Below, in pieces: positions 1 to 64,000 of a stretch of DNA of 64,000 nucleotides. The stretch comes from Loxodes magnus (taxonomy: Eukaryota; Ciliophora; Karyorelictea; Loxodida; Loxodidae): NCBI GenBank assembly GCA_946699065.1, contig CAMPDV010001073.1:1-64000 (forward strand). Reading direction: 5' to 3'. The position numbers and the translations under genes are program-made. Position 1 is the stretch's first letter, and every line of letters begins with the position of its first letter. Below the pieces are notes generated by a model, which saw nothing but the letters and a program-made list of their open reading frames with translations, searched no databases and was not told the origin of the DNA.

Positions 1-3000
1 GGGAAGTCATGGTTATACGTTGAGACTATGGGACGTAAAGACAGGTACCAGTAAGACAATGAGTGGTCACACTAGTTATGCATGATCTGTGGCTATATCC
101 AGTGATTCAGAGTTCATCGTATCGGCAAGTCATGGTTATACGTTGAGACTATGGGACGTCAAGACAGGTACCAGTAAGACAATGAGTGGTCACTCATGGT
201 CTGTAAATGCTGTGGCTATATCCAGTGATTCAGAGTTCATCGTATCGGGAAGTCATGGTTATACGTTGAGACTATGGGACGTCAAGACAGGTACCAGTAA
301 GACAATGAGTGGTCACACATGGTCTGTAAATGCTGTGGCTATATCCAGTGATTCAGAGTTCATCGTATCGGGAAGTCATGGTTATACGTTGAGACTATGG
401 GACGTCAAGACAGGTACCAGTAAGACAATGAGTGGTCACTCATGGTCTGTAAATGCTGTGGCTATATCCAGTGATTCAGAGTTCATCGTATCGGGAAGTC
501 ATGGTTATACGTTGAGACTATGGGACGTCAAGACAGGTACCAGTAAGACAATGAGTGGTCACACTAGTTCAATATATGCTGCAGCAATATCCAGTGATTC
601 AGAGTTCATCGTATCGGGAAGTCATGGTTATACGTTGAGACTATGGGACGTCAAGACAGGTACCAGTAAGACAATGAGTGGTCACACATGGTCTGTAAAT
701 GCTGTGGCTATATCCAGTGATTCAGAGTTCATCGTATCGGGAAGTCATGGTTATACGTTGAGACTATGGGACGTAAAGACAGGTACCAGTAAGACAATGA
801 GTGGTCACACTAGTTATGTATGATCTGTGGCTATATCCAGTGATTCAGAGTTCATCGTATCGGGAAGTCATGGTTATACGTTGAGACTATGGGACGTCAA
901 GACAGGTACCAGTAAGACAATGAGTGGTCACACATGGTCTGTAAATGCTGTGGCTATATCCAGTGATTCAGAGTTCATCGTATCGGGAAGTCATGGTTAT
1001 ACGTTGAGACTATGGGACGTCAAGACAGGTACCAGTAAGACAATGAGTGGTCACACTAGTTATGTATGATCTGTGGCTATATCCAGTGATTCAGAGTTCA
1101 TCGTATCGGGAAGTCATGGTTATACGTTGAGACTATGGGACGTCAAGACAGGTACCAGTAAGACAATGAGTGGTCACACATGGTCTGTAAATGCTGTGGC
1201 TATATCCAGTGATTCAGAGTTCATCGTATCGGGAAGTCATGGTTATACGTTGAGACTATGGGACGTCAAGACAGGTACCAGTAAGACAATGAGTGGTCAC
1301 ACATGGTCTGTAAATGCTGTGGCTATATCCAGTGATTCAGAGTTCATCGTATCGGGAAGTCATGGTTATACGTTGAGACTATGGGACGTCAAGACAGGTA
1401 CCAGTAAGACAATGAGTGGTCACACTTGTTGAGTATCATCTGTGGCTATATCCAGTGATTCAGAGTTCATCGTATCGGGAAGTTATAATTAGACGGTGAG
1501 ACTATGGGACGTCAAGACAGGTACCAGTAAGACAATGAGTGGTCACACATGGTCTGTAAATGCTGTGGCTATATCCAGTGATTCAGAGTTCATCGTATCG
1601 GCAAGTCATGGTTATACGTTGAGACTATGGGACGTCAAGACAGGTACCAGTAAGACAATGAGTGGTCACTCATGGTCTGTAAATGCTGTGGCTATATCCA
1701 GTGATTCAGAGTTCATCGTATCGGGAAGTCATGGTTATACGTTGAGACTATGGGACGTCAAGACAGGTACCAGTAAGACAATGAGTGGTCACACATGGTC
1801 TGTAAATGCTGTGGCTATATCCAGTGATTCAGAGTTCATCGTATCGGGAAGTTATGATTGTACGGTGAGACTATGGAACGTCAAGACAGGTACCTGTAAG
1901 ACCATGAGTGGTCACACAGATTATGTATTATCTGTGGCTATATCCAGTGATTCAGAGTTCATCGTATCGTGAAGTTATGATGAGACGGTGAGACTATGGA
2001 ATGTCAAGACAGGTACCTGTAAGACCATGAGTGGTCACACATGGTCTGTAAATGCTGTGGCTATATCCAGTGATTCAGAGTTCATCGTATCGGGAAGTCA
2101 TGGTTATACGGTGAGACTATGGGACGTCAAGACAGGTACCAGTAAGACAATGAGTGGTCACACTAGTTATGTATGATTTGTGGCTATATCCAGTGATTCA
2201 GAGTTCATCGTATCGGGAAGTGATGATTGTACGGTGAGACTATGGGACGTCAAGACAGGTACCAGTAAGACAATGAGTGGTCACACTAGTTATGTATGAT
2301 CTGTGGCTATAACCAGTGATTCAGAGTTCATCGTATCGGGAAGTATGATTCTACGGTGAGACTATGGGACGTCAAGACAGGTACCAGTAAGACAATGAGT
2401 TGTCACACATGGTCTGTAAATGCTGTGGCTATATCCAGTGATTCAGAGTTCATCGTATCGGGAAGTCATGGTTATACGTTGAGACTTTGGGACGTCAAGA
2501 CAGGTACCAGTAAGACAATGAGTGGTCACACTAGTTATGTATGATCTGTGGCTATAACCAGTGATTCAGAGTTCATCGTATCGGGAAGTTATGATTAGAC
2601 GGTGAGACTATGGGACGTCAAGACAGGTACCAGTAAGACAATGAGTGGTCACACATGGTCTGTAAATGCTGTGGCTATATCCAGTGATTCAGAGTTCATC
2701 GTATCGGGAAGTCATGGTTATACGTTGAGACTTTGGGACGTCAAGACAGGTACCAGTAAGACAATGAGTGGTCACACTAGTTCAATATATGCTGCAGCGA
2801 TATCCAGTGATTCAGAGTTCATCGTATCGGGAAGTCATGGTTATACGTTGAGACTATGGGACGTCAAGACAGGTACCAGTAAGACAATGAGTGGTCACAC
2901 ATGGTCTGTAAATGCTGTGGCTATATCCAGTGATTCAGAGTTCATCGTATCGGGAAGTCATGGTTATACGTTGAGACTATGGGACGTCAAGACAGGTACC

Positions 3001-4004
3001 AGTAAGACAATGAGTGGTCACACATGGTCTGTAAATGCTGTGGCTATATCCAGTGATTCAGAGTTCATCGTATCGGGAAGTTGAGATTCTACGGTGAGAC
3101 TATGGGACGTCAAGACAGGTACCTGTAAGACCATGAGTGGTCACACTTGTTGAGTATCATCTGTGGCTATATACAGTGATTCAGAGTTCATCGTATCGGG
3201 AAGTCATGGTTATACGTTGAGACTATGGGACGTCAAGACAGGTACCAGTAAGACAATGAGTGGTCACACATGGTCTGTAAATGCTGTGGCTATATCCAGT
3301 GATTCAGAGTTCATCGTATCGGGAAGTCATGGTTATACGTTGAGACTATGGGACGTCAAGACAGGTACCAGTAAGACAATGAGTGGTCACACATGGTCTG
3401 TAAATGCTGTGGCTATATCCAGTGATTCAGAGTTCATCGTATCGGGAAGTCATGGTTATACGTTGAGACTATGGGACGTAAAGACAGGTACCAGTAAGAC
3501 AATGAGTGGTCACACTAGTTATGCATGATCTGTGGCTATATCCAGTGATTCAGAGTTCATCGTATCGGCAAGTCATGGTTATACGTTGAGACTATGGGAC
3601 GTCAAGACAGGTACCAGTAAGACAATGAGTGGTCACTCATGGTCTGTAAATGCTGTGGCTATATCCAGTGATTCAGAGTTCATCGTATCGGGAAGTCATG
3701 GTTATACGTTGAGACTATGGGACGTCAAGACAGGTACCAGTAAGACAATGAGTGGTCACACTAGTTCAATATATGCTGCAGCAATATCCAGTGATTCAGA
3801 GTTCATCGTATCGGGAAGTCATGGTTATACGTTGAGACTATGGGACGTCAAGACAGGTACCAGTAAGACAATGAGTGGTCACACATGGTCTGTAAATGCT
3901 GTGGCTATATCCAGTGATTCAGAGTTCATCGTATCGGGAAGTCATGGTTATACGTTGAGACTATGGGACGTAAAGACAGGTACCAGTAAGACAATGAGTG
4001 GTCA

Positions 4005-6464
4005 CACTAGTTATGTATGATCTGTGGCTATATCCAGTGATTCAGAGTTCATCGTATCGGGAAGTCATGGTTATACGTTGAGACTATGGGACGTCAAGAC
4101 AGGTACCAGTAAGACAATGAGTGGTCACACATGGTCTGTAAATGCTGTGGCTATATCCAGTGATTCAGAGTTCATCGTATCGGGAAGTCATGGTTATACG
4201 TTGAGACTATGGGACGTCAAGACAGGTACCAGTAAGACAATGAGTGGTCACACATGGTCTGTAAATGCTGTGGCTATATCCAGTGATTCAGAGTTCATCG
4301 TATCGGGAAGTCATGGTTATACGTTGAGACTATGGGACGTCAAGACAGGTACCAGTAAGACAATGAGTGGTCACACATGGTCTGTAAATGCTGTGGCTAT
4401 ATCCAGTGATTCAGAGTTCATCGTATCGGGAAGTTATAATTAGACGGTGAGACTATGGGACGTCAAGACAGGTACCAGTAAGACAATGAGTGGTCACACA
4501 TGGTCTGTAAATGCTGTGGCTATATCCAGTGATTCAGAGTTCATCGTATCGGCAAGTCATGGTTATACGTTGAGACTATGGGACGTCAAGACAGGTACCA
4601 GTAAGACAATGAGTGGTCACTCATGGTCTGTAAATGCTGTGGCTATATCCAGTGATTCAGAGTTCATCGTATCGGGAAGTCATGGTTATACGTTGAGACT
4701 ATGGGACGTCAAGACAGGTACCAGTAAGACAATGAGTGGTCACACATGGTCTGTAAATGCTGTGGCTATATCCAGTGATTCAGAGTTCATCGTATCGGGA
4801 AGTCATGGTTATACGGTGAGACTATGGGACGTCAAGACAGGTACCTGTAAGACCATGAGTGGTCACACAGATTCTGTATGATCTGTGGCTATATCCAGTG
4901 ATTCAGAGTTCATCGTATCGGGAAGTTATGATTGTACGGTGAGACTATGGGACGTCAAGACAGGTACCAGTAAGACAATGAGTGGTCACACATGGTCTGT
5001 AAATGCTGTGGCTATATCCAGTGATTCAGAGTTCATCGTATCGGGAAGTCATGGTTATACGTTGAGACTATGGGACGTCAAGACAGGTACCAGTAAGACA
5101 ATGAGTGGTCACACATGGTCTGTAAATGCTGTGGCTATATCCAGTGATTCAGAGTTCATCGTATCGGGAAGTTATAATTAGACGGTGAGACTATGGGACG
5201 TCAAGACAGGTACCAGTAAGACAATGAGTGGTCACACTAGTTATGTATGATCTGTGGCTATATCCAGTGATTCAGAGTTCATCGTATCGGGAAGTCATGG
5301 TTATACGTTGAGACTATGGGACGTCAAGACAGGTACCAGTAAGACAATGAGTGGTCACACATGGTCTGTAAATGCTGTGGCTATATCCAGTGATTCAGAG
5401 TTCATCGTATCGGGAAGTCATGGTTATACGTTGAGACTATGGGACGTCAAGACAGGTACCAGTAAGACAATGAGTGGTCACACATGGTCTGTAAATGCTG
5501 TGGCTATATCCAGTGATTCAGAGTTCATCGTATCGGGAAGTCATGGTTATACGTTGAGACTATGGGACGTCAAGACAGGTACCAGTAAGACAATGAGTGG
5601 TCACACATGGTCTGTAAATGCTGTGGCTATATCCAGTGATTCAGAGTTCATCGTATCGGGAAGTTATAATTAGACGGTGAGACTATGGGACGTCAAGACA
5701 GGTACCAGTAAGACAATGAGTGGTCACACATGGTCTGTAAATGCTGTGGCTATATCCAGTGATTCAGAGTTCATCGTATCGGCAAGTCATGGTTATACGT
5801 TGAGACTATGGGACGTCAAGACAGGTACCAGTAAGACAATGAGTGGTCACTCATGGTCTGTAAATGCTGTGGCTATATCCAGTGATTCAGAGTTCATCGT
5901 ATCGGGAAGTCATGGTTATACGTTGAGACTATGGGACGTCAAGACAGGTACCAGTAAGACAATGAGTGGTCACACATGGTCTGTAAATGCTGTGGCTATA
6001 TCCAGTGATTCAGAGTTCATCGTATCGGGAAGTCATGGTTATACGGTGAGACTATGGGACGTCAAGACAGGTACCTGTAAGACCATGAGTGGTCACACAG
6101 ATTCTGTATGATCTGTGGCTATATCCAGTGATTCAGAGTTCATCGTATCGGGAAGTTATGATTGTACGGTGAGACTATGGGACGTCAAGACAGGTACCAG
6201 TAAGACAATGAGTGGTCACACATGGTCTGTAAATGCTGTGGCTATATCCAGTGATTCAGAGTTCATCGTATCGGGAAGTCATGGTTATACGTTGAGACTA
6301 TGGGACGTCAAGACAGGTACCAGTAAGACAATGAGTGGTCACACATGGTCTGTAAATGCTGTGGCTATATCCAGTGATTCAGAGTTCATCGTATCGGGAA
6401 GTTATAATTAGACGGTGAGACTATGGGACGTCAAGACAGGTACCAGTAAGACAATGAGTGGTCA
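4005..6464 (+). repeat. 1,230-bp tandem duplication (two copies of ten units)
   Basis: The stretch 4,005-5,234 repeats at 5,235-6,464 with an exact 10-unit period. The copies share a Tyr-Asn-stop TAG unit, the Ala13 variant (GCA), a C-type unit with Asp37-Ser38-Val-TGA, and a Tyr-Asp-Cys unit. The right edge is where copy 2 reads Trp37 in place of Ser37-Tyr38. I saw no differences between the copies by eye, which implies recent unequal exchange. Confidence 0.8.
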
Positions 6465-7341
6465 CACATGGTCTGTAAATGCTGTGGCTATATCCAGTGA
6501 TTCAGAGTTCATCGTATCGGGAAGTTATGATTAGACGGTGAGACTATGGAACGTCAAGACAGGTACCAGTAAGACAATGAGTGGTCACTCATGGTCTGTA
6601 AATGCTGTGGCTATATCCAGTGATTCAGAGTTCATCGTATCGGGAAGTCATGGTTATACGTTGAGACTATGGGACGTCAAGACAGGTACCAGTAAGACAA
6701 TGAGTGGTCACACATGGTCTGTAAATGCTGTGGCTATATCCAGTGATTCAGAGTTCATCGTATCGGGAAGTCATGGTTATACGGTGAGACTATGGGACGT
6801 CAAGACAGGTACCAGTAAGACAATGAGTGGTCACACATGGTCTGTATATACTGTGGCTATATCCAGTGATTCAGAGTTCATCGTATCGGGAAGTCATGGT
6901 TATACGTTGAGACTATGGGACGTCAAGACAGGTACCAGTAAGACAATGAGTGGTCACACATGGTCTGTAAATGCTGTGGCTATATCCAGTGATTCAGAGT
7001 TCATCGTATCGGGAAGTCATGGTTATACGTTGAGACTATGGGACGTCAAGACAGGTACCAGTAAGACAATGAGTGGTCACACTAGTTATGTATGATCTGT
7101 GGCTATAACCAGTGATTCAGAGTTCATCGTATCGGGAAGTTGAGATTCTACGGTGAGACTATGGGACGTCAAGACAGGTACCAGTAAGACAATGAGTGGT
7201 CACACATGGTCTGTAAATGCTGTGGCTATATCCAGTGATTCAGAGTTCATCGTATCGGGAAGTCATGGTTATACGTTGAGACTATGGGACGTCAAGACAG
7301 GTACCAGTAAGACAATGAGTGGTCACACTAGTTATGTATGA

Positions 7342-8202
7342 TCTGTGGCTATAACCAGTGATTCAGAGTTCATCGTATCGGGAAGTCATGGTTATACGTT
7401 GAGACTATGGGACGTCAAGACAGGTACCAGTAAGACAATGAGTGGTCACACATGGTCTGTAAATGCTGTGGCTATATCCAGTGATTCAGAGTTCATCGTA
7501 TCGGGAAGTCATGGTTATACGTTGAGACTATGGGACGTCAAGACAGGTACCAGTAAGACAATGAGTGGTCACACATGGTCTGTAAATGCTGTGGCTATAT
7601 CCAGTGATTCAGAGTTCATCGTATCGGGAAGTGATGATTCTACGGTGAGACTATGGAACGTCAAGACAGGTACCAGTAAGACAATGAGTGGTCACACATG
7701 GTCTGTAAATGCTGTGGCTATATCCAGTGATTCAGAGTTCATCGTATCGGGAAGTCATGGTTATACGTTGAGACTATGGGACGTCAAGACAGGTACCAGT
7801 AAGACAATGAGTGGTCACTCATGGTCTGTAAATGCTGTGGCTATATCCAGTGATTCAGAGTTCATCGTATCGGGAAGTCATGGTTATACGTTGAGACTAT
7901 GGGACGTCAAGACAGGTACCAGTAAGACAATGAGTGGTCACACTAGTTCAATATATGCTGCAGCAATATCCAGTGATTCAGAGTTCATCGTATCGGGAAG
8001 TCATGGTTATACGTTGAGACTATGGGACGTCAAGACAGGTACCAGTAAGACAATGAGTGGTCACACATGGTCTGTAAATGCTGTGGCTATATCCAGTGAT
8101 TCAGAGTTCATCGTATCGGGAAGTCATGGTTATACGTTGAGACTATGGGACGTAAAGACAGGTACCAGTAAGACAATGAGTGGTCACACTAGTTATGTAT
8201 GA
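7342..8202 (+). pseudogene. WD40 open block, exactly seven blades, S-type
   Basis: Stop-to-stop open frame of 861 bp, exactly 7 x 123, between two TGA codons at codon 40. Six blades are His-Gly-Tyr at 15-17 and lack Asp16; one is Asp-Asp-Ser with Asn23. One inter-blade segment is the Ser-Ser-Ile-Tyr-Ala-Ala form. Seven blades would suit one propeller, but nothing marks a start and both flanks continue the array directly, so the length may be chance. I treat it as a fragment of a broken repeat gene. Confidence 0.5.
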
Positions 8203-8940
8203 TCTGTGGCTATATCCAGTGATTCAGAGTTCATCGTATCGGGAAGTCATGGTTATACGTTGAGACTATGGGACGTCAAGACAGGTACCAGTAAGACAAT
8301 GAGTGGTCACACATGGTCTGTAAATGCTGTGGCTATATCCAGTGATTCAGAGTTCATCGTATCGGGAAGTCATGGTTATACGTTGAGACTATGGGACGTC
8401 AAGACAGGTACCAGTAAGACAATGAGTGGTCACACATGGTCTGTAAATGCTGTGGCTATATCCAGTGATTCAGAGTTCATCGTATCGGGAAGTCATGGTT
8501 ATACGTTGAGACTATGGGACGTCAAGACAGGTACCAGTAAGACAATGAGTGGTCACACTAGTTATGTATGATCTGTGGCTATATCCAGTGATTCAGAGTT
8601 CATCGTATCGGGAAGTCATGGTTATACGTTGAGACTATGGGACGTCAAGACAGGTACCAGTAAGACAATGAGTGGTCACACTAGTTATGTATGATCTGTG
8701 GCTATAACCAGTGATTCAGAGTTCATCGTATCGGGAAGTTGAGATTCTACGGTGAGACTATGGGACGTCAAGACAGGTACCAGTAAGACAATGAGTGGTC
8801 ACACATGGTCTGTAAATGCTGTGGCTATATCCAGTGATTCAGAGTTCATCGTATCGGGAAGTCATGGTTATACGTTGAGACTATGGGACGTCAAGACAGG
8901 TACCAGTAAGACAATGAGTGGTCACACTAGTTATGTATGA

Positions 8941-10416
8941 TCTGTGGCTATAACCAGTGATTCAGAGTTCATCGTATCGGGAAGTCATGGTTATACGTTG
9001 AGACTATGGGACGTCAAGACAGGTACCAGTAAGACAATGAGTGGTCACACATGGTCTGTAAATGCTGTGGCTATATCCAGTGATTCAGAGTTCATCGTAT
9101 CGGGAAGTCATGGTTATACGTTGAGACTATGGGACGTCAAGACAGGTACCAGTAAGACAATGAGTGGTCACACATGGTCTGTAAATGCTGTGGCTATATA
9201 CAGTGATTCAGAGTTCATCGTATCGGGAAGTCATGGTTATACTTTGAGACTATGGGACGTCAAGACAGGTACCAGTAAGACAATGAGTGGTCACACATGG
9301 TCTGTAAATGCTGTGGCTATATCCAGTGATTCAGAGTTCATCGTATCGGGAAGTCATGGTTATACGTTGAGACTATGGGACGTCAAGACAGGTACCAGTA
9401 AGACAATGAGTGGTCACACATGGTCTGTAAATGCTGTGGCTATATCCAGTGATTCAGAGTTCATCGTATCGGGAAGTCATGGTTATACGTTGAGACTATG
9501 GGACGTCAAGACAGGTACCAGTAAGACAATGAGTGGTCACACATGGTCTGTAAATGCTGTGGCTATATCCAGTGATTCAGAGTTCATCGTATCGGGAAGT
9601 CATGGTTATACGTTGAGACTATGGGACGTCAAGACAGGTACCAGTAAGACAATGAGTGGTCACACATGGTCTGTATATACTGTGGCTATATCCAGTGATT
9701 CAGAGTTCATCGTATCGGGAAGTAGAGATTCTACGGTGAGACTATGGGACGTCAAGACAGGTACCAGTAAGACAATGAGTGGTCACACATGGTCTGTAAA
9801 TGCTGTGGCTATATCCAGTGATTCAGAGTTCATCGTATCGGGAAGTCATGGTTATACGTTGAGACTATGGGACGTCAAGACAGGTACCAGTAAGACAATG
9901 AGTGGTCACACATGGTCTGTATATACTGTGGCTATATCCAGTGATTCAGAGTTCATCGTATCGGGAAGTAGAGATTCTACGGTGAGACTATGGGACGTCA
10001 AGACAGGTACCAGTAAGACAATGAGTGGTCACACATGGTCTGTAAATGCTGTGGCTATATCCAGTGATTCAGAGTTCATCGTATCGGGAAGTCATGGTTA
10101 TACGTTGAGACTATGGGACGTCAAGACAGGTACCAGTAAGACAATGAGTGGTCACACATGGTCTGTATATACTGTGGCTATATCCAGTGATTCAGAGTTC
10201 ATCGTATCGGGAAGTCATGGTTATACGTTGAGACTATGGGACGTCAAGACAGGTACCAGTAAGACAATGAGTGGTCACACATGGTCTGTAAATGCTGTGG
10301 CTATATCCAGTGATTCAGAGTTCATCGTATCGGGAAGTAGAGATTCTACGGTGAGACTATGGGACGTCAAGACAGGTACCAGTAAGACAATGAGTGGTCA
10401 CACTAGTTATGTATGA
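8941..10416 (+). pseudogene. WD40 open block, twelve S-type blades
   Basis: A 1,476-bp open frame (exactly 12 units) between codon-40 TGA stops; it is the longest in the S-type region. Nine blades have His-Gly-Tyr at 15-17 and three have Arg-Asp-Ser, the latter keeping Asp16. Most inter-blade segments are Trp-Ser-Val-Asn-Ala, with three Trp-Ser-Val-Tyr-Thr. One blade has Tyr4 in place of Ser4 and a TTG at codon 19 preceded by ACT, a marker also seen near 12.56 and 17.11 kb. There is no ATG start; the apparent start is the V1 GTG. It is probably a fragment of a formerly longer repeat frame. Confidence 0.5.
9067..9189 (+). repeat. Representative S-type WD40 unit (Asp16 lost)
   Basis: A 123-bp unit with His15-Gly16-Tyr17, Leu19, Asp23 and Ser29 (AGT) with ACA at Thr31, then Trp37-Ser38 and Asn40-Ala41. 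Compared with C-type units, the Asp16 codon GAT has become GGT. That position normally supplies the Asp of the WD40 Trp-Ser/Thr-His-Asp hydrogen-bond network, so the blade may be less stable or relaxed in function. The linked changes at codons 15-17, 19, 23, 29, 31, 37 and 40 mark a distinct subfamily rather than random drift. Confidence 0.88.
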
Positions 10417-10472
10417 TCTGTGGCTATAACCAGTGATTCAGAGTTCATCGTATCGGGAAGTATGATTCTACG

Positions 10473-11645
10473 GTGAGACTATGGGACGTCAAGACAGGTA
10501 CCAGTAAGACAATGAGTTGTCACACATGGTCTGTAAATGCTGTGGCTATATCCAGTGATTCAGAGTTCATCGTATCGGGAAGTCATGGTTATACGTTGAG
10601 ACTTTGGGACGTCAAGACAGGTACCAGTAAGACAATGAGTGGTCACACTAGTTCAATATATGCTGCAGCGATATCCAGTGATTCAGAGTTCATCGTATCG
10701 GGAAGTCATGGTTATACGTTGAGACTATGGGACGTCAAGACAGGTACCAGTAAGACAATGAGTGGTCACACATGGTCTGTAAATGCTGTGGCTATATCCA
10801 GTGATTCAGAGTTCATCGTATCGGGAAGTCATGGTTATACGTTGAGACTATGGGACGTCAAGACAGGTACCAGTAAGACAATGAGTGGTCACACATGGTC
10901 TGTAAATGCTGTGGCTATATCCAGTGATTCAGAGTTCATCGTATCGGGAAGTGATGATTATACGGTGAGACTATGGAACGTCAAGACAGGTACCAGTAAG
11001 ACAATGAGTGGTCACACATGGTCTGTAAATGCTGTGGCTATATCCAGTGATTCAGAGTTCATCGTATCGGGAAGTCATGGTTATACGTTGAGACTATGGG
11101 ACGTCAAGACAGGTACCAGTAAGACAATGAGTGGTCACACTAGTTCAATATATGCTGCAGCAATATCCAGTGATTCAGAATTCATCGTATCGGGAAGTCA
11201 TGGTTATACGTTGAGACTATGGGACGTCAAGACAGGTACCAGTAAGACAATGAGTGGTCACACATGGTCTGTAAATGCTGTGGCTATATCCAGTGATTCA
11301 GAGTTCATCGTATCGGGAAGTCATGGTTATACGTTGAGACTATGGGACGTCAAGACAGGTACCAGTAAGACAATGAGTGGTCACACATGGTCTGTAAATG
11401 CTGTGGCTATATCCAGTGATTCAGAGTTCATCGTATCGGGAAGTGATGATAAGACGGTGAGACTATGGGACGTCAAGACAGGTACCAGTAAGACAATGAG
11501 TGGTCACACTAGTTCAATATATGCTGCAGCTATATCCAGTGATTCAGAGTTCATCGTATCGGGAAGTGATGATTATACGGTGAGACTATGGGACGTCAAG
11601 ACAGGTACCTGTAAGACCATGAGTGGTCACACAGATTCTGTATGA
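10473..11645 (+). pseudogene. WD40 open block after a 1-bp deletion, mixed blades
   Basis: It opens in a new frame created by the 1-bp deletion near 10,461 and ends at a codon-40 TGA (390 codons, about 9.5 blades). The first segment has Cys34-His35 instead of Gly-His. It contains two Ser-Ser-Ile-Tyr-Ala-Ala connectors, one with GCG and one with GCA at codon 2, Asp-Asp-Tyr and Asp-Asp-Lys blades among His-Gly-Tyr ones, and a rare synonymous GAA at Glu8 near 11,180. A near copy lies at 15022-16194. No start is recognisable. Confidence 0.48.
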
Positions 11646-14600
11646 TCTGTGGCTATATCCAGTGATTCAGAGTTCATCGTATCGGGAAGTGATGATTGTA
11701 CGGTGAGACTATGGAACGTCAAGACAGGTACCTGTAAGACCATGAGTGGTCACACATGGTCTGTAAATGCTGTGGCTATATCCAGTGATTCAGAGTTCAT
11801 CGTATCGGGAAGTCATGGTTATACGTTGAGACTATGGGACGTCAAGACAGGTACCAGTAAGACAATGAGTGGTCACACTAGTTATGTATGATCTGTGGCT
11901 ATATCCAGTGATTCAGAGTTCATCGTATCGGGAAGTCATGGTTATACGTTGAGACTATGGGACGTCAAGACAGGTACCAGTAAGACAATGAGTGGTCACA
12001 CTAGTTATGTATGATCTGTGGCTATAACCAGTGATTCAGAGTTCATCGTATCGGGAAGTTGAGATTCTACGGTGAGACTATGGGACGTCAAGACAGGTAC
12101 CAGTAAGACAATGAGTGGTCACACATGGTCTGTAAATGCTGTGGCTATATCCAGTGATTCAGAGTTCATCGTATCGGGAAGTCATGGTTATACGTTGAGA
12201 CTATGGGACGTCAAGACAGGTACCAGTAAGACAATGAGTGGTCACACTAGTTATGTATGATCTGTGGCTATAACCAGTGATTCAGAGTTCATCGTATCGG
12301 GAAGTCATGGTTATACGTTGAGACTATGGGACGTCAAGACAGGTACCAGTAAGACAATGAGTGGTCACACATGGTCTGTAAATGCTGTGGCTATATCCAG
12401 TGATTCAGAGTTCATCGTATCGGGAAGTCATGGTTATACGTTGAGACTATGGGACGTCAAGACAGGTACCAGTAAGACAATGAGTGGTCACACATGGTCT
12501 GTAAATGCTGTGGCTATATACAGTGATTCAGAGTTCATCGTATCGGGAAGTCATGGTTATACTTTGAGACTATGGGACGTCAAGACAGGTACCAGTAAGA
12601 CAATGAGTGGTCACACATGGTCTGTAAATGCTGTGGCTATATCCAGTGATTCAGAGTTCATCGTATCGGGAAGTCATGGTTATACGTTGAGACTATGGGA
12701 CGTCAAGACAGGTACCAGTAAGACAATGAGTGGTCACACATGGTCTGTAAATGCTGTGGCTATATCCAGTGATTCAGAGTTCATCGTATCGGGAAGTCAT
12801 GGTTATACGTTGAGACTATGGGACGTCAAGACAGGTACCAGTAAGACAATGAGTGGTCACACATGGTCTGTAAATGCTGTGGCTATATCCAGTGATTCAG
12901 AGTTCATCGTATCGGGAAGTTATAATTAGACGGTGAGACTATGGGACGTCAAGACAGGTACCAGTAAGACAATGAGTGGTCACACATGGTCTGTAAATGC
13001 TGTGGCTATATCCAGTGATTCAGAGTTCATCGTATCGGGAAGTCATGGTTATACGTTGAGACTATGGGACGTCAAGACAGGTACCAGTAAGACAATGAGT
13101 GGTCACACATGGTCTGTATATACTGTGGCTATATCCAGTGATTCAGAGTTCATCGTATCGGGAAGTCATGGTTATACGTTGAGACTATGGGACGTCAAGA
13201 CAGGTACCAGTAAGACAATGAGTGGTCACACATGGTCTGTAAATGCTGTGGCTATATCCAGTGATTCAGAGTTCATCGTATCGGGAAGTAGAGATTCTAC
13301 GGTGAGACTATGGGACGTCAAGACAGGTACCAGTAAGACAATGAGTGGTCACACTAGTTATGTATGATCTGTGGCTATAACCAGTGATTCAGAGTTCATC
13401 GTATCGGGAAGTATGATTCTACGGTGAGACTATGGGACGTCAAGACAGGTACCAGTAAGACAATGAGTTGTCACACATGGTCTGTAAATGCTGTGGCTAT
13501 ATCCAGTGATTCAGAGTTCATCGTATCGGGAAGTCATGGTTATACGTTGAGACTTTGGGACGTCAAGACAGGTACCAGTAAGACAATGAGTGGTCACACT
13601 AGTTCAATATATGCTGCAGCGATATCCAGTGATTCAGAGTTCATCGTATCGGGAAGTCATGGTTATACGTTGAGACTATGGGACGTCAAGACAGGTACCA
13701 GTAAGACAATGAGTGGTCACACATGGTCTGTAAATGCTGTGGCTATATCCAGTGATTCAGAGTTCATCGTATCGGGAAGTCATGGTTATACGTTGAGACT
13801 ATGGGACGTCAAGACAGGTACCAGTAAGACAATGAGTGGTCACACATGGTCTGTAAATGCTGTGGCTATATCCAGTGATTCAGAGTTCATCGTATCGGGA
13901 AGTAGAGATAAGACGGTGAGACTATGGAACGTCAAGACAGGTACCTGTAAGACCATGAGTGGTCACACAGATTCTGTATATACTGTGGCTATATCCAGTG
14001 ATTCAGAGTTCATCGTATCGGGAAGTGATGATAAGACGGTGAGACTATGGGACGTCAAGACAGGTACCAGTAAGACAATGAGTGGTCACACATGGTCTGT
14101 AAATGCTGTGGCTATATCCAGTGATTCAGAGTTCATCGTATCGGGAAGTTATAATTAGACGGTGAGACTATGGGACGTCAAGACAGGTACCAGTAAGACA
14201 ATGAGTGGTCACACATGGTCTGTAAATGCTGTGGCTATATCCAGTGATTCAGAGTTCATCGTATCGGGAAGTCATGGTTATACGTTGAGACTATGGGACG
14301 TCAAGACAGGTACCAGTAAGACAATGAGTGGTCACACATGGTCTGTAAATGCTGTGGCTATATACAGTGATTCAGAGTTCATGGTATCGGGAAGTTGAGA
14401 TTCTACGGTGAGACTATGGGACGTCAAGACAGGTACCAGTAAGACAATGAGTGGTCACACTAGTTCAATATATGCTGCAGCTATATCCAGTGATTCAGAG
14501 TTCATCGTATCGGGAAGTGATGATTATACGGTGAGACTATGGGACGTCAAGACAGGTACCTGTAAGACCATGAGTGGTCACACAGATTCTGTATGATCTG

Positions 14601-15021
14601 TGGCTATATCCAGTGATTCAGAGTTCATCGTATCGGGAAGTGATGATTGTACGGTGAGACTATGGAACGTCAAGACAGGTACCTGTAAGACCATGAGTGG
14701 TCACACATGGTCTGTAAATGCTGTGGCTATATCCAGTGATTCAGAGTTCATCGTATCGGGAAGTCATGGTTATACGTTGAGACTATGGGACGTCAAGACA
14801 GGTACCAGTAAGACAATGAGTGGTCACACTAGTTATGTATGATCTGTGGCTATATCCAGTGATTCAGAGTTCATCGTATCGGGAAGTCATGGTTATACGT
14901 TGAGACTATGGGACGTCAAGACAGGTACCAGTAAGACAATGAGTGGTCACACTAGTTATGTATGATCTGTGGCTATAACCAGTGATTCAGAGTTCATCGT
15001 ATCGGGAAGTATGATTCTACG

Positions 15022-16194
15022 GTGAGACTATGGGACGTCAAGACAGGTACCAGTAAGACAATGAGTTGTCACACATGGTCTGTAAATGCTGTGGCTATAA
15101 CCAGTGATTCAGAGTTCATCGTATCGGGAAGTCATGGTTATACGTTGAGACTTTGGGACGTCAAGACAGGTACCAGTAAGACAATGAGTGGTCACACTAG
15201 TTCAATATATGCTGCAGCGATATCCAGTGATTCAGAGTTCATCGTATCGGGAAGTCATGGTTATACGTTGAGACTATGGGACGTCAAGACAGGTACCAGT
15301 AAGACAATGAGTGGTCACACATGGTCTGTAAATGCTGTGGCTATATCCAGTGATTCAGAGTTCATCGTATCGGGAAGTCATGGTTATACGTTGAGACTAT
15401 GGGACGTCAAGACAGGTACCAGTAAGACAATGAGTGGTCACACATGGTCTGTAAATGCTGTGGCTATATCCAGTGATTCAGAGTTCATCGTATCGGGAAG
15501 TGATGATTATACGGTGAGACTATGGAACGTCAAGACAGGTACCAGTAAGACAATGAGTGGTCACACATGGTCTGTAAATGCTGTGGCTATATCCAGTGAT
15601 TCAGAGTTCATCGTATCGGGAAGTCATGGTTATACGTTGAGACTATGGGACGTCAAGACAGGTACCAGTAAGACAATGAGTGGTCACACTAGTTCAATAT
15701 ATGCTGCAGCAATATCCAGTGATTCAGAATTCATCGTATCGGGAAGTCATGGTTATACGTTGAGACTATGGGACGTCAAGACAGGTACCAGTAAGACAAT
15801 GAGTGGTCACACATGGTCTGTAAATGCTGTGGCTATATCCAGTGATTCAGAGTTCATCGTATCGGGAAGTCATGGTTATACGTTGAGACTATGGGACGTC
15901 AAGACAGGTACCTGTAAGACCATGAGTGGTCACACAGATTCTGTATATGCTGTGGCTATAACCAGTTATTCAGAGTTTTTCGTATCGGGAAGTCATGGCT
16001 ATACGGTGAGACTATGGGACGTCAAGACAGGTACCAGTAAGACAATGAGTGGTCACACTAGTTCAATATATGCTGCAGCTATATCCAGTGATTCAGAGTT
16101 CATCGTATCGGGAAGTGATGATTATACGGTGAGACTATGGGACGTCAAGACAGGTACCTGTAAGACCATGAGTGGTCACACAGATTCTGTATGA
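15022..16194 (+). pseudogene. WD40 open block, second copy with a private mutation cluster
   Basis: A 390-codon copy of 10473-11645 at an offset of 4,549 bp, again starting just after the 1-bp deletion. It differs by Thr4 in an early blade and by one strongly changed unit at about 15,955-16,015. There Ser4, Asp6 and Ile10 become Thr, Tyr and Phe, codon 17 is TAT preceded by GGC, and the connector is C-type. This density of private changes is unusual in the array. The block ends at a codon-40 TGA and has no credible start. Confidence 0.48.
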
Positions 16195-22100: not shown

Positions 22101-22994
22101 GTGGATATATCCAGTGATTCAGAGTTCATCGTATCGGGAAGTTATGATTAGACGGTGAGACTATGGAACGTCAAGACAGGTACCTGTAAGACCATGAGTG
22201 GTCACACATATTCTGTATATGCTGTGGCTATATCCAGTGATTCAGAGTTCATCGTATCGGGAAGTTATGATTAGACGGTGAGACTATGGAACGTCAAGAC
22301 AGGTACCTGTAAGACCATGAGTGGTCACACATATTCTGTATATACTGTGGCTATATCCAGTGATTCAGAGTTCATCGTATCGGGAAGTGATGATAAGACG
22401 GTGAGACTATGGAACGTCAAGACAGGTACCTGTAAGACCATGAGTGGTCACACAGATTCTGTATGATCTGTGGCTATATCCAGTGATTCAGAGTTCATCG
22501 TATCGGGAAGTAGAGATAAGACGGTGAGACTATGGGACGTCAAGACAGGTACCTGTAAGACCATGAGTGGTCACACATATTCTGTATATACTGTGGCTAT
22601 ATCCAGTGATTCAGAGTTCATCGTATCGGGAAGTTATGATTAGACGGTGAGACTATGGAACGTCAAGACAGGTACCTGTAAGACCATGAGTGGTCACACA
22701 GATTATGTATTATCTGTGGCTATATCCAGTGATTCAGAGTTCATCGTATCGGGAAGTAGAGATGAGACGGTGAGACTATGGAACGTCAAGACAGGTACCT
22801 GTAAGACCATGAGTGGTCACACAGATTATGTATTATCTGTGGCTATATCCAGTGATTCAGAGTTCATCGTATCGGGAAGTTATGATGAGACGGTGAGACT
22901 ATGGGACGTCAAGACAGGTACCTGTAAGACCATGAGTGGTCACACAGATTCTGTATATACTGTGGCTATATCCAGTGATTCAGAGTTCATCGTA

Positions 22995-25695
<2,701 letters not shown>

Positions 25696-26908
25696 CGTCA
25701 AGACAGGTACCTGTAAGACCATGAGTGGTCACACATATTCTGTATATACTGTGGCTATATCCAGTGATTCAGAGTTCATCGTATCGGGAAGTGATGATAA
25801 GACGGTGAGACTATGGAACGTCAAGACAGGTACCTGTAAGACCATGAGTGGTCACACAGATTCTGTATTATCTGTGGCTATATCCAGTGATTCAGAGTTC
25901 ATCGTATCGGGAAGTTATGATAAGACGGTGAGACTATGGGACGTCAAGACAGGTACCTGTAAGACCATGAGTGGTCACACAGATTATGTATGATCTGTGG
26001 CTATATCCAGTGATTCAGAGTTCATCGTATCGGGAAGTAGAGATGAGACTGTGAGACTATGGAACGTCAAGACAGGTACCTGTAAGACCATGAGTGGTCA
26101 CACATATTCTGTATATGCTGTGGCTATATCCAGTGATTCAGAGTTCATCGTATCGGGAAGTTATGATAAGACGGTGAGACTATGGGACGTCAAGACAGGT
26201 ACCTGTAAGACCATGAGTGGTCACACAGATTATGTATATACTGTGGCTATATCCAGTGATTCAGAGTTCATCGTATCGGGAAGTAGAGATAAGACGGTGA
26301 GACTATGGAACGTCAAGACAGGTACCTGTAAGACCATGAGTGGTCACACAGATTCTGTATTATCTGTGGCTATATCCAGTGATTCAGAGTTCATCGTATC
26401 GGGAAGTGATGATAAGACGGTGAGACTATGGAACGTCAAGACAGGTACCTGTAAGACCATGAGTGGTCACACAGATTCTGTATGTGCTGTGGCTATATCC
26501 AGTGATTCAGAGTTCATCGTATCGGGAAGTAGAGATGAGACTGTGAGACTATGGAACGTCAAGACAGGTACCTGTAAGACCATGAGTGGTCACACAGATT
26601 CTGTATGATCTGTGGCTATATCCAGTGATTCAGAGTTCATCGTATCGGGAAGTAGAGATAAGACGGTGAGACTATGGGACGTCAAGACATGTACCTGTAA
26701 GACCATGAGTGGTCACACTAGTTATGTATATACTGTGTCTATATCCAGTGATTCAGAGTTCATCGTATCGGGAAGTAGAGATGAGACGGTGAGACTATGG
26801 AACGTCAAGACAGGTACCTGTAAGACCATGAGTGGTCACACATATTCTGTATTATCTGTGGCTATATCCAGTGATTCAGAGTTCATCGTATCGGGAAGTG
26901 ATGATTAG

Positions 26909-30667: not shown

Positions 30668-30790
30668 TCTGTGGCTATATCCAGTGATTCAGAGTTCATC
30701 GTATCGGGAAGTGATGATAAGAAGGTGAGACTATGGGACGTCAAGACAGGTACCTGTAAGACCATGAGTGGTCACACAGATTCTGTATGA

Positions 30791-34900: not shown

Positions 34901-35359
34901 TACGTTGAGACTATGGGACGTCAAGACAGGTACCAGTAAGACAATGAGTGGTCACACATGGTCTGTAAATGCTGTGGCTATATACAGTGATTCAGAGTTC
35001 ATGGTATCGGGAAGTTGAGATTCTACGGTGAGACTATGGGACGTCAAGACAGGTACCAGTAAGACAATGAGTGGTCACACTAGTTCAATATATGCTGCAG
35101 CTATATCCAGTGATTCAGAGTTCATCGTATCGGGAAGTGATGATTATACGGTGAGACTATGGGACGTCAAGACAGGTACCTGTAAGACCATGAGTGGTCA
35201 CACAGATTCTGTATTATCTGTGGCTATATCCAGTGATTCAGAGTTCATCGTATCGGGAAGTGATGATAAGACGGTGAGACTATGGAACGTCAAGACAGGT
35301 ACCTGTAAGACCATGAGTGGTCACACATATTCTGTATATGCTGTGGCTATATCCAGTGA

Positions 35360-37667: not shown

Positions 37668-39320
37668 TCTGTGGCTATATCCAGTGATTCAGAGTTCATC
37701 GTATCGGGAAGTAGAGATAAGACGGTGAGACTATGGAACGTCAAGACAGGTACCTGTAAGACCATGAGTGGTCACACAGATTCTGTATATGCTGTGGCTA
37801 TATCCAGTGATTCAGAGTTCATCGTATCGGGAAGTGATGATAAGACGGTGAGACTATGGGACGTCAAGACAGGTACCTGTAAGACCATGAGTGGTCACAC
37901 AGATTATGTATATGCTGTGGCTATATCCAGTGATTCAGAGTTCATCGTATCGGGAAGTGATGATAAGACTGTGAGACTATGGAACGTCAAGACAGGTACC
38001 TGTAAGACCATGAGTGGTCACACATATTCTGTATATACTGTGGCTATATCCAGTGATTCAGAGTTCATCGTATCGGGAAGTAGAGATGAGACTGTGAGAC
38101 TATGGGACGTCAAGACAGGTACCTGTAAGACCATGAGTGGTCACACAGATTCTGTATATGCTGTGGCTATATCCAGTGATTCAGAGTTCATCGTATCGGG
38201 AAGTGATGATAAGACGGTGAGACTATGGGACGTCAAGACAGGTACCTGTAAGACCATGAGTGGTCACACATATTCTGTATATACTGTGGCTATATCCAGT
38301 GATTCAGAGTTCATCGTATCGGGAAGTAGAGATGAGACTGTGAGACTATGGGACGTCAAGACAGGTACCTGTAAGACCATGAGTGGTCACACAGATTATG
38401 TATATGCTGTGGCTATATCCAGTGATTCAGAGTTCATCGTATCGGGAAGTAGAGATAAGACGGTGAGACTATGGAACGTCAAGACAGGTACCTGTAAGAC
38501 CATGAGTGGTCACACAGATTCTGTATATGCTGTGGCTATATCCAGTGATTCAGAGTTCATCGTATCGGGAAGTGATGATAAGACGGTGAGACTATGGGAC
38601 GTCAAGACAGGTACCTGTAAGACCATGAGTGGTCACACAGATTATGTATATGCTGTGGCTATATCCAGTGATTCAGAGTTCATCGTATCGGGAAGTGATG
38701 ATAAGACGGTGAGACTATGGAACGTCAAGACAGGTACCTGTAAGACCATGAGTGGTCACACATATTCTGTATATACTGTGGCTATATCCAGTGATTCAGA
38801 GTTCATCGTATCGGGAAGTGATGATAAGACGGTGAGACTATGGAACGTCAAGACAGGTACCTGTAAGACCATGAGTGGTCACACAGATTCTGTATATACT
38901 GTGGCTATATCCAGTGATTCAGAGTTCATCGTATCGGGAAGTAGAGATGAGACTGTGAGACTATGGAACGTCAAGACAGGTACCTGTAAGACCATGAGTG
39001 GTCACACAGATTATGTATTATCTGTGGCTATATCCAGTGATTCAGAGTTCATCGTATCGGGAAGTGATGATTGTACGGTGAGACTATGGAACGTCAAGAC
39101 AGGTACCTGTAAGACCATGAGTGGTCACACAGATTCTGTATTATCTGTGGCTATATCCAGTGATTCAGAGTTCATCGTATCGGGAAGTTATGATAAGACG
39201 GTGAGACTATGGGACGTCAAGACAGGTACCAGTAAGACAATGAGTGGTCACACATGGTCTGTAAATGCTGTGGCTATATCCAGTGATTCAGAGTTCATCG
39301 TATCGGGAAGTTATAATTAG
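37668..39320 (+). pseudogene. WD40 open block, thirteen blades plus partial, longest complete open frame (copy 1)
   Basis: A 1,653-bp open frame from a codon-40 TGA to a TAG at codon 17; the open run is 549 codons. Thirteen whole blades: RDK, DDK, DDK, RDE, DDK, RDE, RDK, DDK, DDK, DDK, RDE, DDC, YDK, then Tyr-Asn-stop. All keep Asp16, Trp22 and His35, so two seven-bladed propellers could nearly be made. The last connector changes to S-type. The copy at 48480-50132 has the same protein. It may be functional if recoding or an upstream start exists, but no start or promoter is visible. Confidence 0.5.
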
Positions 39321-39560
39321 ACGGTGAGACTATGGGACGTCAAGACAGGTACCAGTAAGACAATGAGTGGTCACACATGGTCTGTAAATGCTGTGGCTAT
39401 ATCCAGTGATTCAGAGTTCATCGTATCGGCAAGTCATGGTTATACGTTGAGACTATGGGACGTCAAGACAGGTACCAGTAAGACAATGAGTGGTCACACA
39501 TGGTCTGTAAATGCTGTGGCTATATACAGTGATTCAGAGTTCATGGTATCGGGAAGTTGA

Positions 39561-51054: not shown

Positions 51055-52338
51055 TCTGTGGCTATATCCAGTGATTCAGAGTTCATCGTATCGGGAAGTA
51101 GAGATAAGACGGTGAGACTATGGAACGTCAAGACAGGTACCTGTAAGACCATGAGTGGTCACACAGATTCTGTATATACTGTGGCTATATCCAGTGATTC
51201 AGAGTTCATCGTATCGGGAAGTGATGATAAGACGGCGAGACTATGGGACGTCAAGACAGGTACCTGTAAGACCATGAGTGGTCACACATATTCTGTATAT
51301 ACTGTGGCTATATCCAGTGATTCAGAGTTCATCGTATCGGGAAGTAGAGATGAGACTGTGAGACTATGGGACGTCAAGACAGGTACCTGTAAGACCATGA
51401 GTGGTCACACAGATTATGTATATGCTGTGGCTATATCCAGTGATTCAGAGTTCATCGTATCGGGAAGTAGAGATAAGACGGTGAGACTATGGAACGTCAA
51501 GACAGGTACCTGTAAGACCATGAGTGGTCACACAGATTCTGTATATGCTGTGGCTATATCCAGTGATTCAGAGTTCATCGTATCGGGAAGTGATGATAAG
51601 ACGGTGAGACTATGGAACGTCAAGACAGGTACCTGTAAGACCATGAGTGGTCACACAGATTATGTATTATCTGTGGCTATATCCAGTGATTCAGAGTTCA
51701 TCGTATCGGGAAGTGATGATAAGACGGTGAGACTATGGAACGTCAAGACAGGTACCTGTAAGACCATGAGTGGTCACACATATTCTGTATATACTGTGGC
51801 TATATCCAGTGATTCAGAGTTCATCGTATCGGGAAGTGATGATAAGACGGTGAGACTATGGAACGTCAAGACAGGTACCTGTAAGACCATGAGTGGTCAC
51901 ACAGATTCTGTATATACTGTGGCTATATCCAGTGATTCAGAGTTCATCGTATCGGGAAGTAGAGATGAGACTGTGAGACTATGGAACGTCAAGACAGGTA
52001 CCTGTAAGACCATGAGTGGTCACACAGATTATGTATTATCTGTGGCTATATCCAGTGATTCAGAGTTCATCGTATCGGGAAGTGATGATTGTACGGTGAG
52101 ACTATGGAACGTCAAGACAGGTACCTGTAAGACCATGAGTGGTCACACAGATTCTGTATTATCTGTGGCTATATCCAGTGATTCAGAGTTCATCGTATCG
52201 GGAAGTTATGATAAGACGGTGAGACTATGGGACGTCAAGACAGGTACCAGTAAGACAATGAGTGGTCACACATGGTCTGTAAATGCTGTGGCTATATCCA
52301 GTGATTCAGAGTTCATCGTATCGGGAAGTTATAATTAG
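51055..52338 (+). pseudogene. WD40 open block, ten blades, recombinant of neighbouring copies
   Basis: A 426-codon run from a codon-40 TGA to a codon-17 TAG. Blades: RDK, DDK (Ala19), RDE, RDK, DDK, DDK, DDK, RDE, DDC, YDK. The left half follows 40989-42149. Near its middle a DDK blade carries Asn23 and a Leu40-Ser41 connector where the other copies have Asp23 and Tyr40-Ala41. The right half follows 37668-39320, so it looks like a mosaic of two related modules. Confidence 0.46.
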
Positions 52339-52341
52339 ACG

Positions 52342-58061: not shown

Positions 58062-58474
58062 TCTGTGGCTATATCCAGTGATTCAGAGTTCATCGTATCG
58101 GGAAGTTATGATTAGACGGTGAGACTATGGAACGTCAAGACAGGTACCTGTAAGACCATGAGTGGTCACACATATTCTGTATATGCTGTGGCTATATCCA
58201 GTGATTCAGAGTTCATCGTATCGGGAAGTGATGATTAGACGGTGAGACTATGGAACGTCAAGACAGGTACCTGTAAGACCATGAGTGGTCACACTAGTTA
58301 TGTATATGCTGTGGCTATATCCAGTGATTCAGAGTTCATCGTATCGGGAAGTTATGATGAGACGGTGAGACTATGGGACGTCAAGACAGGTACCTGTAAG
58401 ACCATGAGTGGTCACACAGATTCTGTATATACTGTGGCTATATCCAGTGATTCAGAGTTCATCGTATCGGGAAG

Positions 58475-62430: not shown

Positions 62431-62441
62431 ATTCTGTATAA

Positions 62442-64000
62442 GCTGTGGCTATATCCAGTGATTCAGAGTTCATCGTATCGGGAAGTGATGATTGTACGTT
62501 GAGACTATGGGACGTCAAGACAGGTACCTGTAAGACCATGAGTGGTCACACAGATTATGTATTATCTGTGGCTATATCCAGTGATTCAGAGTTCATCGTA
62601 TCGGGAAGTTATGATTGTACGGTGAGACTATGGGACGTCAAGACAGGTACCTGTAAGACCATGAGTGGTCACACAAATTCTGTAAGATCTGTGGCTATAT
62701 CCAGTGATTCAGAGTTCATCGTATCGGGAAGTGATGATAAGACGGTGAGACTATGGAACGTCAAGACAGGTACCTGTAAGACCATGAGTGGTCACACAAA
62801 TTCTGTAAGATCTGTGGCTATATCCAGTGATTCAGAGTTCATCGTATCGGGAAGTGATGATAAGACGGTGAGACTATGGAACGTCAAGACATGTACCTGT
62901 AAGACCATGAGTGGTCACACAGATTATGTATTATCTGTGGCTATATCCAGTGATTCAGAGTTCATCGTATCGGGAAGTGATGATAAGACGGTGAGACTAT
63001 GGGACGTCAAGACAGGTACCTGTAAGACCATGAGTGGTCACACAGATTATGTATTATCTGTGGCTATATCCAGTGATTCAGAGTTCATCGTATCGGGAAG
63101 TTATGATTGTACGGTGAGACTATGGGACGTCAAGACAGGTACCTGTAAGACCATGAGTGGTCACACAAATTCTGTAAGATCTGTGGCTATATCCAGTGAT
63201 TCAGAGTTCATCGTATCGGGAAGTGATGATAAGACGGTGAGACTATGGAACGTCAAGACAGGTACCTGTAAGACCATGAGTGGTCACACAAATTCTGTAA
63301 GATCTGTGGCTATATCCAGTGATTCAGAGTTCATCGTATCGGGAAGTGATGATAAGACGGTGAGACTATGGAACGTCAAGACATGTACCTGTAAGACCAT
63401 GAGTGGTCACACAGATTATGTATTATCTGTGGCTATATCCAGTGATTCAGAGTTCATCGTATCGGGAAGTAGAGATGAGACGGTGAGACTATGGGACGTC
63501 AAGACAGGTACCTGTAAGACCATGAGTGGTCACACAGATTCTGTATTATCTGTGGCTATATCCAGTGATTCAGAGTTCATCGTATCGGGAAGTGATGATT
63601 ATACGGTGAGACTATGGAACGTCAAGACAGGTACCTGTAAGACCATGAGTGGTCACACTAGTTATGTATATGCTGTGGCTATATCCAGTGATTCAGAGTT
63701 CATCGTATCGGGAAGTGATGATAAGACGGTGAGACTATGGAACGTCAAGACAGGTACCTGTAAGACCATGAGTGGTCACACTAGTTATGTATATGCTGTG
63801 GCAATATCCAGTGATTCAGAGTTCATCGTATCGGGAAGTGATGATAAGACGGTGAGACTATGGAACGTCAAGACAGGTACCTGTAAGACCATGAGTGGTC
63901 ACACAGATTCTGTATTATCTGTGGCTATATCCAGTGATTCAGAGTTCATCGTATCGGGAAGTGATGATAAGACGGTGAGACTATGGGACGTCAAGACAGG
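62442..64000 (+). CDS. WD40-repeat protein, open segment running off the right edge (partial)
   Basis: After the TAA at 62,439-62,441 the frame stays open to the end of the window: 519 codons, 12 whole blades and part of a 13th, with no frameshift. All blades are C-type and keep Asp16, Trp22 and His35, so each could fold. Codons 15-17 run DDC, YDC, DDK, DDK, DDK, YDC, DDK, DDK, RDE, DDY, DDK, DDK, DDK. Residues 37-38 and 40-41 alternate DY-LS and NS-RS, then DS-LS and SY-YA. A four-blade set (492 bp) is duplicated inside it, at about 62.58 and 63.07 kb. Twelve or more blades would make nearly two seven-bladed propellers. No start codon is identifiable, because GTG is the framework V1 codon. 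It could be the 5' or middle part of an intact repeat gene, or only the least damaged part of the array. Confidence 0.55.
63798..63920 (+). repeat. Representative C-type WD40 unit
   Basis: A clean 123-bp unit beginning at the V1 codon GTG. It carries Asp15-Asp16-Lys17, Val19, Asn23 and Cys29 (TGT), with ACC at Thr31, and Asp37-Ser38 and Leu40-Ser41 after Gly34-His35-Thr36. It keeps the residues expected for the WD40 structural tetrad (Ser in the serine-rich strand, Asp16, Trp22, His35). C-type units dominate 20.8-29.6 kb and the region after 58 kb. A GGTACC hexamer lies at codons 27-28, as in nearly every unit of the window. Confidence 0.9.

Follow-up and report, generated by a model that had tools for sequence, protein, structure and literature searches.

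What does a long run of protein-coding units mean when a few of their codons vary strongly and the rest hardly at all? The question is raised by a stretch of 64,000 nucleotides (nt) of the ciliate Loxodes magnus (positions 1–64000 of contig CAMPDV010001073.1, here C1073; the whole stretch is called the window), in an assembly of 705,730,643 bases and 7,843 contigs. The window is a single uninterrupted head-to-tail array of units encoding WD40 blades. From its variable codons it had been proposed that the array may be, or derive from, a recognition module that generates diversity by mixing blade variants. We consider it probable (about 0.72) that the array is a satellite of the variable blade cassette of a kinase–pentapeptide–WD40 gene family, with receptor-like genes as the seed.

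The repeat unit and its variable codons

Tandem Repeats Finder reported a period of 123 nt, 521 copies and 93% matches in the window (1..64000), and the array extends to ~C1073:123292. Anchored on Met-Ser/Gly-His, 520 full units were counted in the window: 490 of 123 nt, 16 of 122 nt and 14 of 115 nt. The plus strand codes for WD40 blades of 41 residues (PF00400, 4.1e-97 on one stretch).

Codons were numbered with Gly-His as 1–2; codons 15, 17, 37, 38, 40 and 41 of the original prediction are then 23, 25, 4, 5, 7 and 8, and its two-state codons 19, 23 and 29 are 27, 31 and 37. Codon entropy in the window was 2.03, 1.20, 2.17 and 1.49 bits at codons 4, 5, 7 and 8, and 2.17, 1.23 and 2.20 bits at codons 23, 24 and 25; 24 of the 34 remaining codons had less than 0.3 bits. 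These seven codons carried 60% of the codon entropy, so the variation was not spread evenly over the unit. The six codons named beforehand were confirmed, and codon 24 (Asp/Gly), absent from that list, also varies. The claim that the rest of the unit is nearly invariant even at third bases was only roughly true, common synonymous alleles being found at codons 3, 26 and 39 in the window (and at codon 10 in a wider sample).

A pooled sample of 2,151 units was drawn from 23 stretches, one of them the window, on three contigs: C1073, C371 and C982. Codon statistics use its 1,990 units of 123 nt and omit the other 161; loci L001–L008 overlapped other stretches and are hence outside every unit count. 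In the 1,990 units the seven codons carried 66% of the nucleotide diversity (17% expected). Codons 5, 7, 23 and 25, set in advance from a paper on the fungal HNWD genes, ranked 7, 2, 3 and 1 of 41 in the window (P=7e-5), and the same test gave P values of 2e-5 to 1.2e-4 in the pooled sample and in arrays on contigs C4, C72 and C29.

Read with the standard code, 145 of the 490 window units of 123 nt would contain a stop, nearly always at a variable codon (155 stops at codons 5, 7, 23 and 25; three at codons 15 and 21), and in other parts of the genome the matches to NACHT and kinase hold in-frame TAA, TAG and some TGA. The standard code was therefore rejected. The codons indicate that the genome reads code table 27, where apparent stops are Gln or Trp: TAA, TAG and TGA inside the units become Gln, Gln and Trp, so that codons 7, 23 and 25 give Trp and Gln where a stop seemed to stand. 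The paper on the L. magnus macronuclear assembly (706 Mbp) describes code 27, with UGA as Trp or stop by context, and reports 231 Mbp of low-complexity tandem repeats (PMC11441545).

Seven in-frame plus-strand units that keep Asp24 throughout (51403..52263) were modelled by AlphaFold2 from the single sequence, giving a seven-bladed propeller (predicted local distance difference test, pLDDT, 94.8; predicted template modelling score, pTM, 0.91). The strands of the first unit were predicted at residues 6–11 (a), 17–22 (b), 26–31 (c) and 37–41 (d). Foldseek matches were seven-bladed propellers, the best in the Protein Data Bank (PDB) being nvWRAP-T (7bie) and 2ymu (template modelling score 0.94 each by query length); profile and fold together place the units among WD40 propellers. 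Both 2ymu and the designed nvWRAP-T are, like the window model, propellers of near-identical blades; unlike the window, they are single proteins (known here from PDB titles), and we know of no satellite or variable-codon system for either. In the model, codons 4–5 fall in the d–a loop, codons 7–8 at the start of strand a and codons 23–25 in the b–c turn. According to PMC3419727, top-face hotspots of WD40 proteins are given by V-R1-R2-V plus the residue preceding the tetrad Asp; under this rule codon 7 is R1, codon 5 is R1-2 and codon 23 is D-1. The variable codons are predicted to be top-face codons of a WD40 propeller, and because they fall at top-face or loop positions in the model, a buried placement is not indicated.

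Kinase genes that carry the unit

A gene on contig C57 (read in part in the stretch L075, C57:12500-14614) was found to encode, in order, a kinase (VAIK, HRD, DFG and APE by eye), a linker, pentapeptide repeats and WD40 blades, of which blades 2–4 carry the satellite backbone. Pfam matches were PK_Tyr_Ser-Thr (7.7e-60) and Pentapeptide (2.4e-14). The kinase–pentapeptide part (476 aa) has at least 90 matches in the genome, some of them partial, at 41–94% identity (89 of 6,358 candidates were scored for the match list). The WD40 part was read in six genes. A pattern match had led to C57; C676, C5, C12 and C393 came next in the ranking of matches, and C64 was 13th. In each gene blade 1 is fixed, then come three cassettes of exactly 123 nt (C64 has four), and three further fixed blades follow. 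All blades read through in one frame in C676, C5, C12, C393 and C64, and inspection of the sequences found Asp24 in all 19 cassettes.

The original prediction had pointed to fungal NOD-like receptors (NLRs) of the HET-E/HNWD type, and this architecture was not borne out. The one gene scanned by Pfam has kinase and pentapeptides and no NACHT or HET, and the other five match its kinase–pentapeptide part; a NACHT N-terminal to WD40, as in the HNWD/NWD family, was not found in them. A NACHT search of the genome gave 31 matches, none of which, among the matches listed, was close to an array or a kinase gene. Five of the 31 NACHT-like matches lie on contig C256.

Between genes, 4.0% of nucleotides differed in the cassette backbone and 34.1% at the cassette top-face codons; outside the cassettes the difference was 13.5% in blade 1 and 14.1% in two later blades (C57 left out). 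The ratio of non-synonymous to synonymous differences per site (pN/pS), from a counting method and not a site model, was 3.08 at the seven top-face codons of the cassettes (bootstrap over genes 1.92–7.06, 290 resamples) and 2.90 at codons 5, 7, 23 and 25 in the 19 cassettes. It was 0.33 in the cassette backbone (0.24 without two hybrids), and in blade 1 it was 0.18 in the backbone and 0.79 at top-face codons. Cassette pS was 0.09–0.24 of blade-1 pS (bootstrap over the six genes, two hybrids left out). These statistics support purifying selection on, and homogenisation of, the cassette backbone in the genes, with diversification of the top-face codons. Two features of HNWD genes, concerted evolution of blades between genes and diversifying selection at four top-face codons, are apparent in the cassettes, the latter matched by spacing and loop position and not by alignment with HET-E. 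The derivation of the array from a recognition-type module is supported, since kinase–pentapeptide–WD40 genes hold the unit and have an excess of amino-acid change at its variable codons.

Blade 4 of C676 and blade 4 of C12 are the two hybrid cassettes; their second halves are blade-1-like, and they look like recombinants. The 19 gene cassettes were compared with 595 distinct array units from 2,315 units (<1% of the total). One cassette, C393 blade 4, was identical over all 123 nt to the array unit at C1073:80617, two were 1 nt off, and 16 were at 2–13 nt from the nearest array unit.

Two ages of variation and a probable origin of the arrays

Common alleles (≥2%) averaged 4.29 per variable codon versus 1.38 per other codon, and those at the variable codons were amino-acid changes, with just two synonymous pairs in the pooled sample. 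Rare variants in the arrays, at four thresholds, numbered 1.4–2.6 per variable codon versus 1.5–2.3 per backbone codon. In the backbone of the pooled sample they were 63 non-synonymous to 16 synonymous (N63:S16; 59:20 expected, p=0.37), and four overlapping subsets likewise showed no departure from expectation. Every length change in the 161 odd-length units was not divisible by three and broke the frame; an example is the 115-nt plus-strand unit at 22938..23052. The tetrad residue Asp24 was absent from 1,143 of the 1,990 units, 1,112 having Gly there, and all four tetrad residues were kept in just 821.

Because rare variants are equal per codon, N:S is near expectation and frames are broken, mutation in the arrays now appears even and without visible constraint; the alleles at the variable codons appear older and have a coding signature. 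Judged by sequence, the array looks like an unconstrained satellite, long, head-to-tail and of high copy number. Rare variants were similar at variable and backbone codons, giving no sign of diversity-generating mutagenesis aimed at the former. Thus, of the proposal that the array may be a recognition module or derive from one, only derivation stands: the array itself shows neutral decay, not selection.

In the whole sample, linkage between the two variable blocks was 0.29 within a unit and 0.28 across a unit border; the window gave 0.38 and 0.29, respectively. The values dropped with distance, roughly the pattern of crossing-over at any point. A plus-strand run of ~55 units (32738..39491, ends derived from unit numbers) has an identical copy 88 units (~10.8 kb) downstream and is a recent large duplication within the array. 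Units are reshuffled, as the idea of blade mixing had it; since linkage is similar within a unit and across its border, there is little sign that blades move in the array as discrete modules.

A broader exact pattern matched 173,837 + 212,821 = 386,658 units in the genome (reversed-pattern control, 0), which at 123 nt make ~47.6 Mb or 6.7% of the assembly; another pattern, containing a codon that none of the 1,990 sampled units has, had 3,069 matches. On C371 (311,820 bases) both contig ends and all 11 of the 10-kb stretches that were sampled consist of array. The arrays on C4, C72 and C29 share the backbone (0–2 of 102 consensus nt differ among them, up to 4 versus C371) and have their own alleles at the variable codons. 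Some 48 Mb of a 706-Mb ciliate assembly are thereby identified as a satellite whose unit is also the variable cassette of a family of protein-coding genes, and what is likely a recognition module appears to be present in several hundred thousand copies in the genome.

We infer that the arrays originated from the genes. In the genes read, three cassette blades (four in one gene) lie between one fixed blade at the start and three at the end; exchange between genes would keep the cassette backbone uniform, and selection for diversity, as the statistics of six genes suggest, would keep the top-face codons different. The cassette would have been multiplied head to tail into long arrays (~387,000 units; one array sampled end to end, on a 312-kb contig), and within the sampled arrays crossing-over and block duplication would shuffle inherited variants without visible constraint. 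Because the variation has two ages, the hypervariable codons of the window were probably inherited from the genes and not generated in the array. A pattern of variable codons in a repeat can thus be the fossil of selection that acted in another place. From the gene architecture, the job of the genes is likely recognition, in which the top of the propeller would bind a variable ligand and the kinase would signal.

The arrays might instead be a silent archive that donates blade variants to the kinase genes by gene conversion and so renews the receptor repertoire, which we think doubtful. Genes and arrays have one nucleotide backbone, three of the 19 cassettes are identical to or 1 nt from an array unit, the hybrids join cassette and blade-1 halves, and several arrays and 13 of 14 placed kinase matches read outward near contig ends. 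The low synonymous divergence of the cassettes, set against blade 1 of the same genes, argues that they are often homogenised or replaced. However, gene-to-gene exchange alone would homogenise them equally, and the remaining 16 cassettes lie at some distance from the nearest unit in the small array sample. Trypanosome VSG and avian immunoglobulin pseudogene archives consist of expressed members and a large non-functional library sharing a variable unit. The Loxodes system would resemble them in having gene members and a large library with a common unit, transfer from array to gene being hypothetical here. A two-part repertoire, with outward-facing kinase receptor genes near chromosome ends and a ~48-Mb blade library refreshing them by conversion, is likewise rather improbable. 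If it were true, the satellite would serve as a working store of variants, with a role like that of the pseudogene archives of antigen or antibody genes. The idea of satellite DNA as a reservoir for receptor diversity becomes testable.

Other readings have much lower probability. That the array is a giant working gene encoding tens of thousands of residues, or the exons of such a gene, is very unlikely: table 27 removes the stops, in-frame runs reach 65 units and seven units are confidently predicted to fold as a propeller, but the window falls into 31 separate in-frame runs with units in all three phases, rare variants look neutral, Asp24 and the full tetrad are widely lost as counted above, and AT-rich sequence adjoins the array at both of the edges that were read. 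We also find it hard to credit that the size, order and copy number of the arrays are mostly an artefact of assembly. Contigs C371, C982, C1318 and C3752 do begin inside an array, C982 and C3752 share a flank and differ in unit order, and the genome paper attributes the size gap between its two assemblies to misassembled low-complexity repeats (PMC11441545); against this, one 5′ and one 3′ junction with the flank were read, and 386,658 copies with locus-specific alleles (in the loci read) would be hard to make from few genes by misassembly. The confinement of variation to few sites might also mark a non-coding satellite whose seven codons are current mutational hotspots or targets of directed mutagenesis. 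We give this almost no credence, for a backbone codon has about as many rare (young) variants as a variable codon, the common alleles are amino-acid changes apart from two synonymous pairs, and the gene cassettes vary at these codons too.

Several points weigh against a decaying satellite seeded by genes, the reading we prefer. Of the 79 units read in the arrays on C4, C72 and C29 only one lacks Asp24 (78 keep it), the units are in frame in 40 of 40, 23 of 23 and 16 of 19 cases, respectively, and the variants are N31:S11 (a raw count with no computed expectation); because Asp24 and frame are retained, decay may have gone less far in some arrays, or these may be partly in use. In these arrays His2 is lost in 4 of 40 (C4) and 5 of 23 (C72) units, and Trp30 in 4 of 40 (C4). 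The C57 gene loses its frame within blade 6, after which sequence resembling blades goes on in another frame; this would be a pseudogene, a frameshift or an assembly error. Recombining repeats can distort pN/pS, and the sample is 19 cassettes; the WD40 part was read for six of the 90 kinase matches, and the cassette numbers come from those six genes. The array edges were read by eye, with Pfam on one 3′-flank stretch and one contig-end stretch.

Related systems and chromosomal setting

The HNWD/NWD genes of Podospora anserina (het-d, het-e and het-r) have near-identical WD40 blades with concerted evolution and reshuffling (PMC1805685, PMC2873952), and diversifying selection acts there on four top-face codons, 7, 9, 25 and 27 (PMC1805685). 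These correspond to codons 5, 7, 23 and 25 here, with the same 2-16-2 spacing and the same loop positions; four of the seven variable codons thus coincide by spacing, which upholds the predicted likeness. The Loxodes cassettes resemble HNWD in homogenised blades and diversifying top-face codons, but differ in that kinase and pentapeptides replace HET/NACHT, the host is a ciliate, fixed blades enclose the cassettes and there is a satellite of tens of Mb. The Loxodes family makes diversity like HNWD, yet, because the N-terminal NACHT was not found, it is no HNWD or NLR member. The pattern in a distant lineage with another signalling domain suggests convergence on one variable-receptor design.

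The nearest ciliate parallel found was the 90-bp-exon leucine-rich repeat (LRR) family of Tetrahymena, where unit amplification is ascribed to unequal crossing-over and an element resembling long interspersed nuclear elements (LINEs) lies nearby (PMC6564038). The Tetrahymena units are exons parted by phase-2 introns, whereas the Loxodes units are contiguous coding blades of 123 nt in the arrays and genes read, with most copies in long arrays; they do not form an exon array of that type. In the literature searched, no paper combined "WD40" with "Loxodes" and none of the titles listed showed a comparable system, and the main text of the Loxodes genome paper does not contain "WD40" (PMC11441545).

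Within the window, the plus-strand region 1..16000 is rich in Gly24 units lacking the structural Asp (Asp/Asn24 in 23–29% of units), and the units at 24001..32000 are Asp24/Cys37 units resembling gene cassettes (Asp/Asn24 100%, Cys37 94%).

The 5′ array edge was read on C982 at ~93,550, where AT-rich sequence ending in an intron-end-like stretch precedes the array. In this locus (L051:1351-1800, C982, minus strand) a 32-nt intron-like stretch, GTAAAT...TTTTCTTTTTAG, precedes the edge; no coding exon was recognised by eye upstream of it on C982. C982 and C3752 have a common 5′ flank (one mismatch in ~440 bases) and junction, and their arrays diverge after 168 bases; the two might be haplotypes or assembly versions of one locus. 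The 3′ edge, on C1073 at ~123,292, opens onto AT-rich sequence, and flank probes had 14–30% GC. About 0.8–1.3 kb past this edge (C1073 ~124.1–124.6 kb; L053:524-1000) lies a reverse-transcriptase-like frame with a YADD motif by eye and a PF00078 match of E=1.2e-5, below the family cut-off, reminiscent of the LINE adjoining the Tetrahymena LRR units. At the contig end, a Cys-rich RING-like frame was seen by eye with TAA/TAG as Gln (C1073:135693-136162; L029:531-1000); it had no Pfam match. An Rfam scan of L029 (the C1073 contig end), L051 (the C982 5′ edge), L053 (the C1073 3′ flank) and L052 gave nothing.

Among the 90 kinase matches, 14 were placed on contigs of known length, in a sample partly chosen for nearness to an end; 13 of these lay ≤30 kb from the end and pointed outward. 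Five of the six genes read were also near a contig end and outward. Matches deeper from the contig start occur as well, for example at C11:83619, C931:66895 and C450:166508. The arrays on C4, C29, C72 and C46 read toward the nearer end, as does that on C21 if its contig exceeds ~0.6 Mb. These positions suggest, without proving, that kinase genes and arrays are subtelomeric. A 79-bp satellite was seen distal to the C57 kinase gene (L080, C57:8001-10500). It is present in one orientation at six tested contig starts near a kinase match (C57, C5, C16, C25, C31 and C27), at five of them over 114–121 bases at 80–98% and at C16 over 48 aligned positions only, and is possibly subtelomeric.

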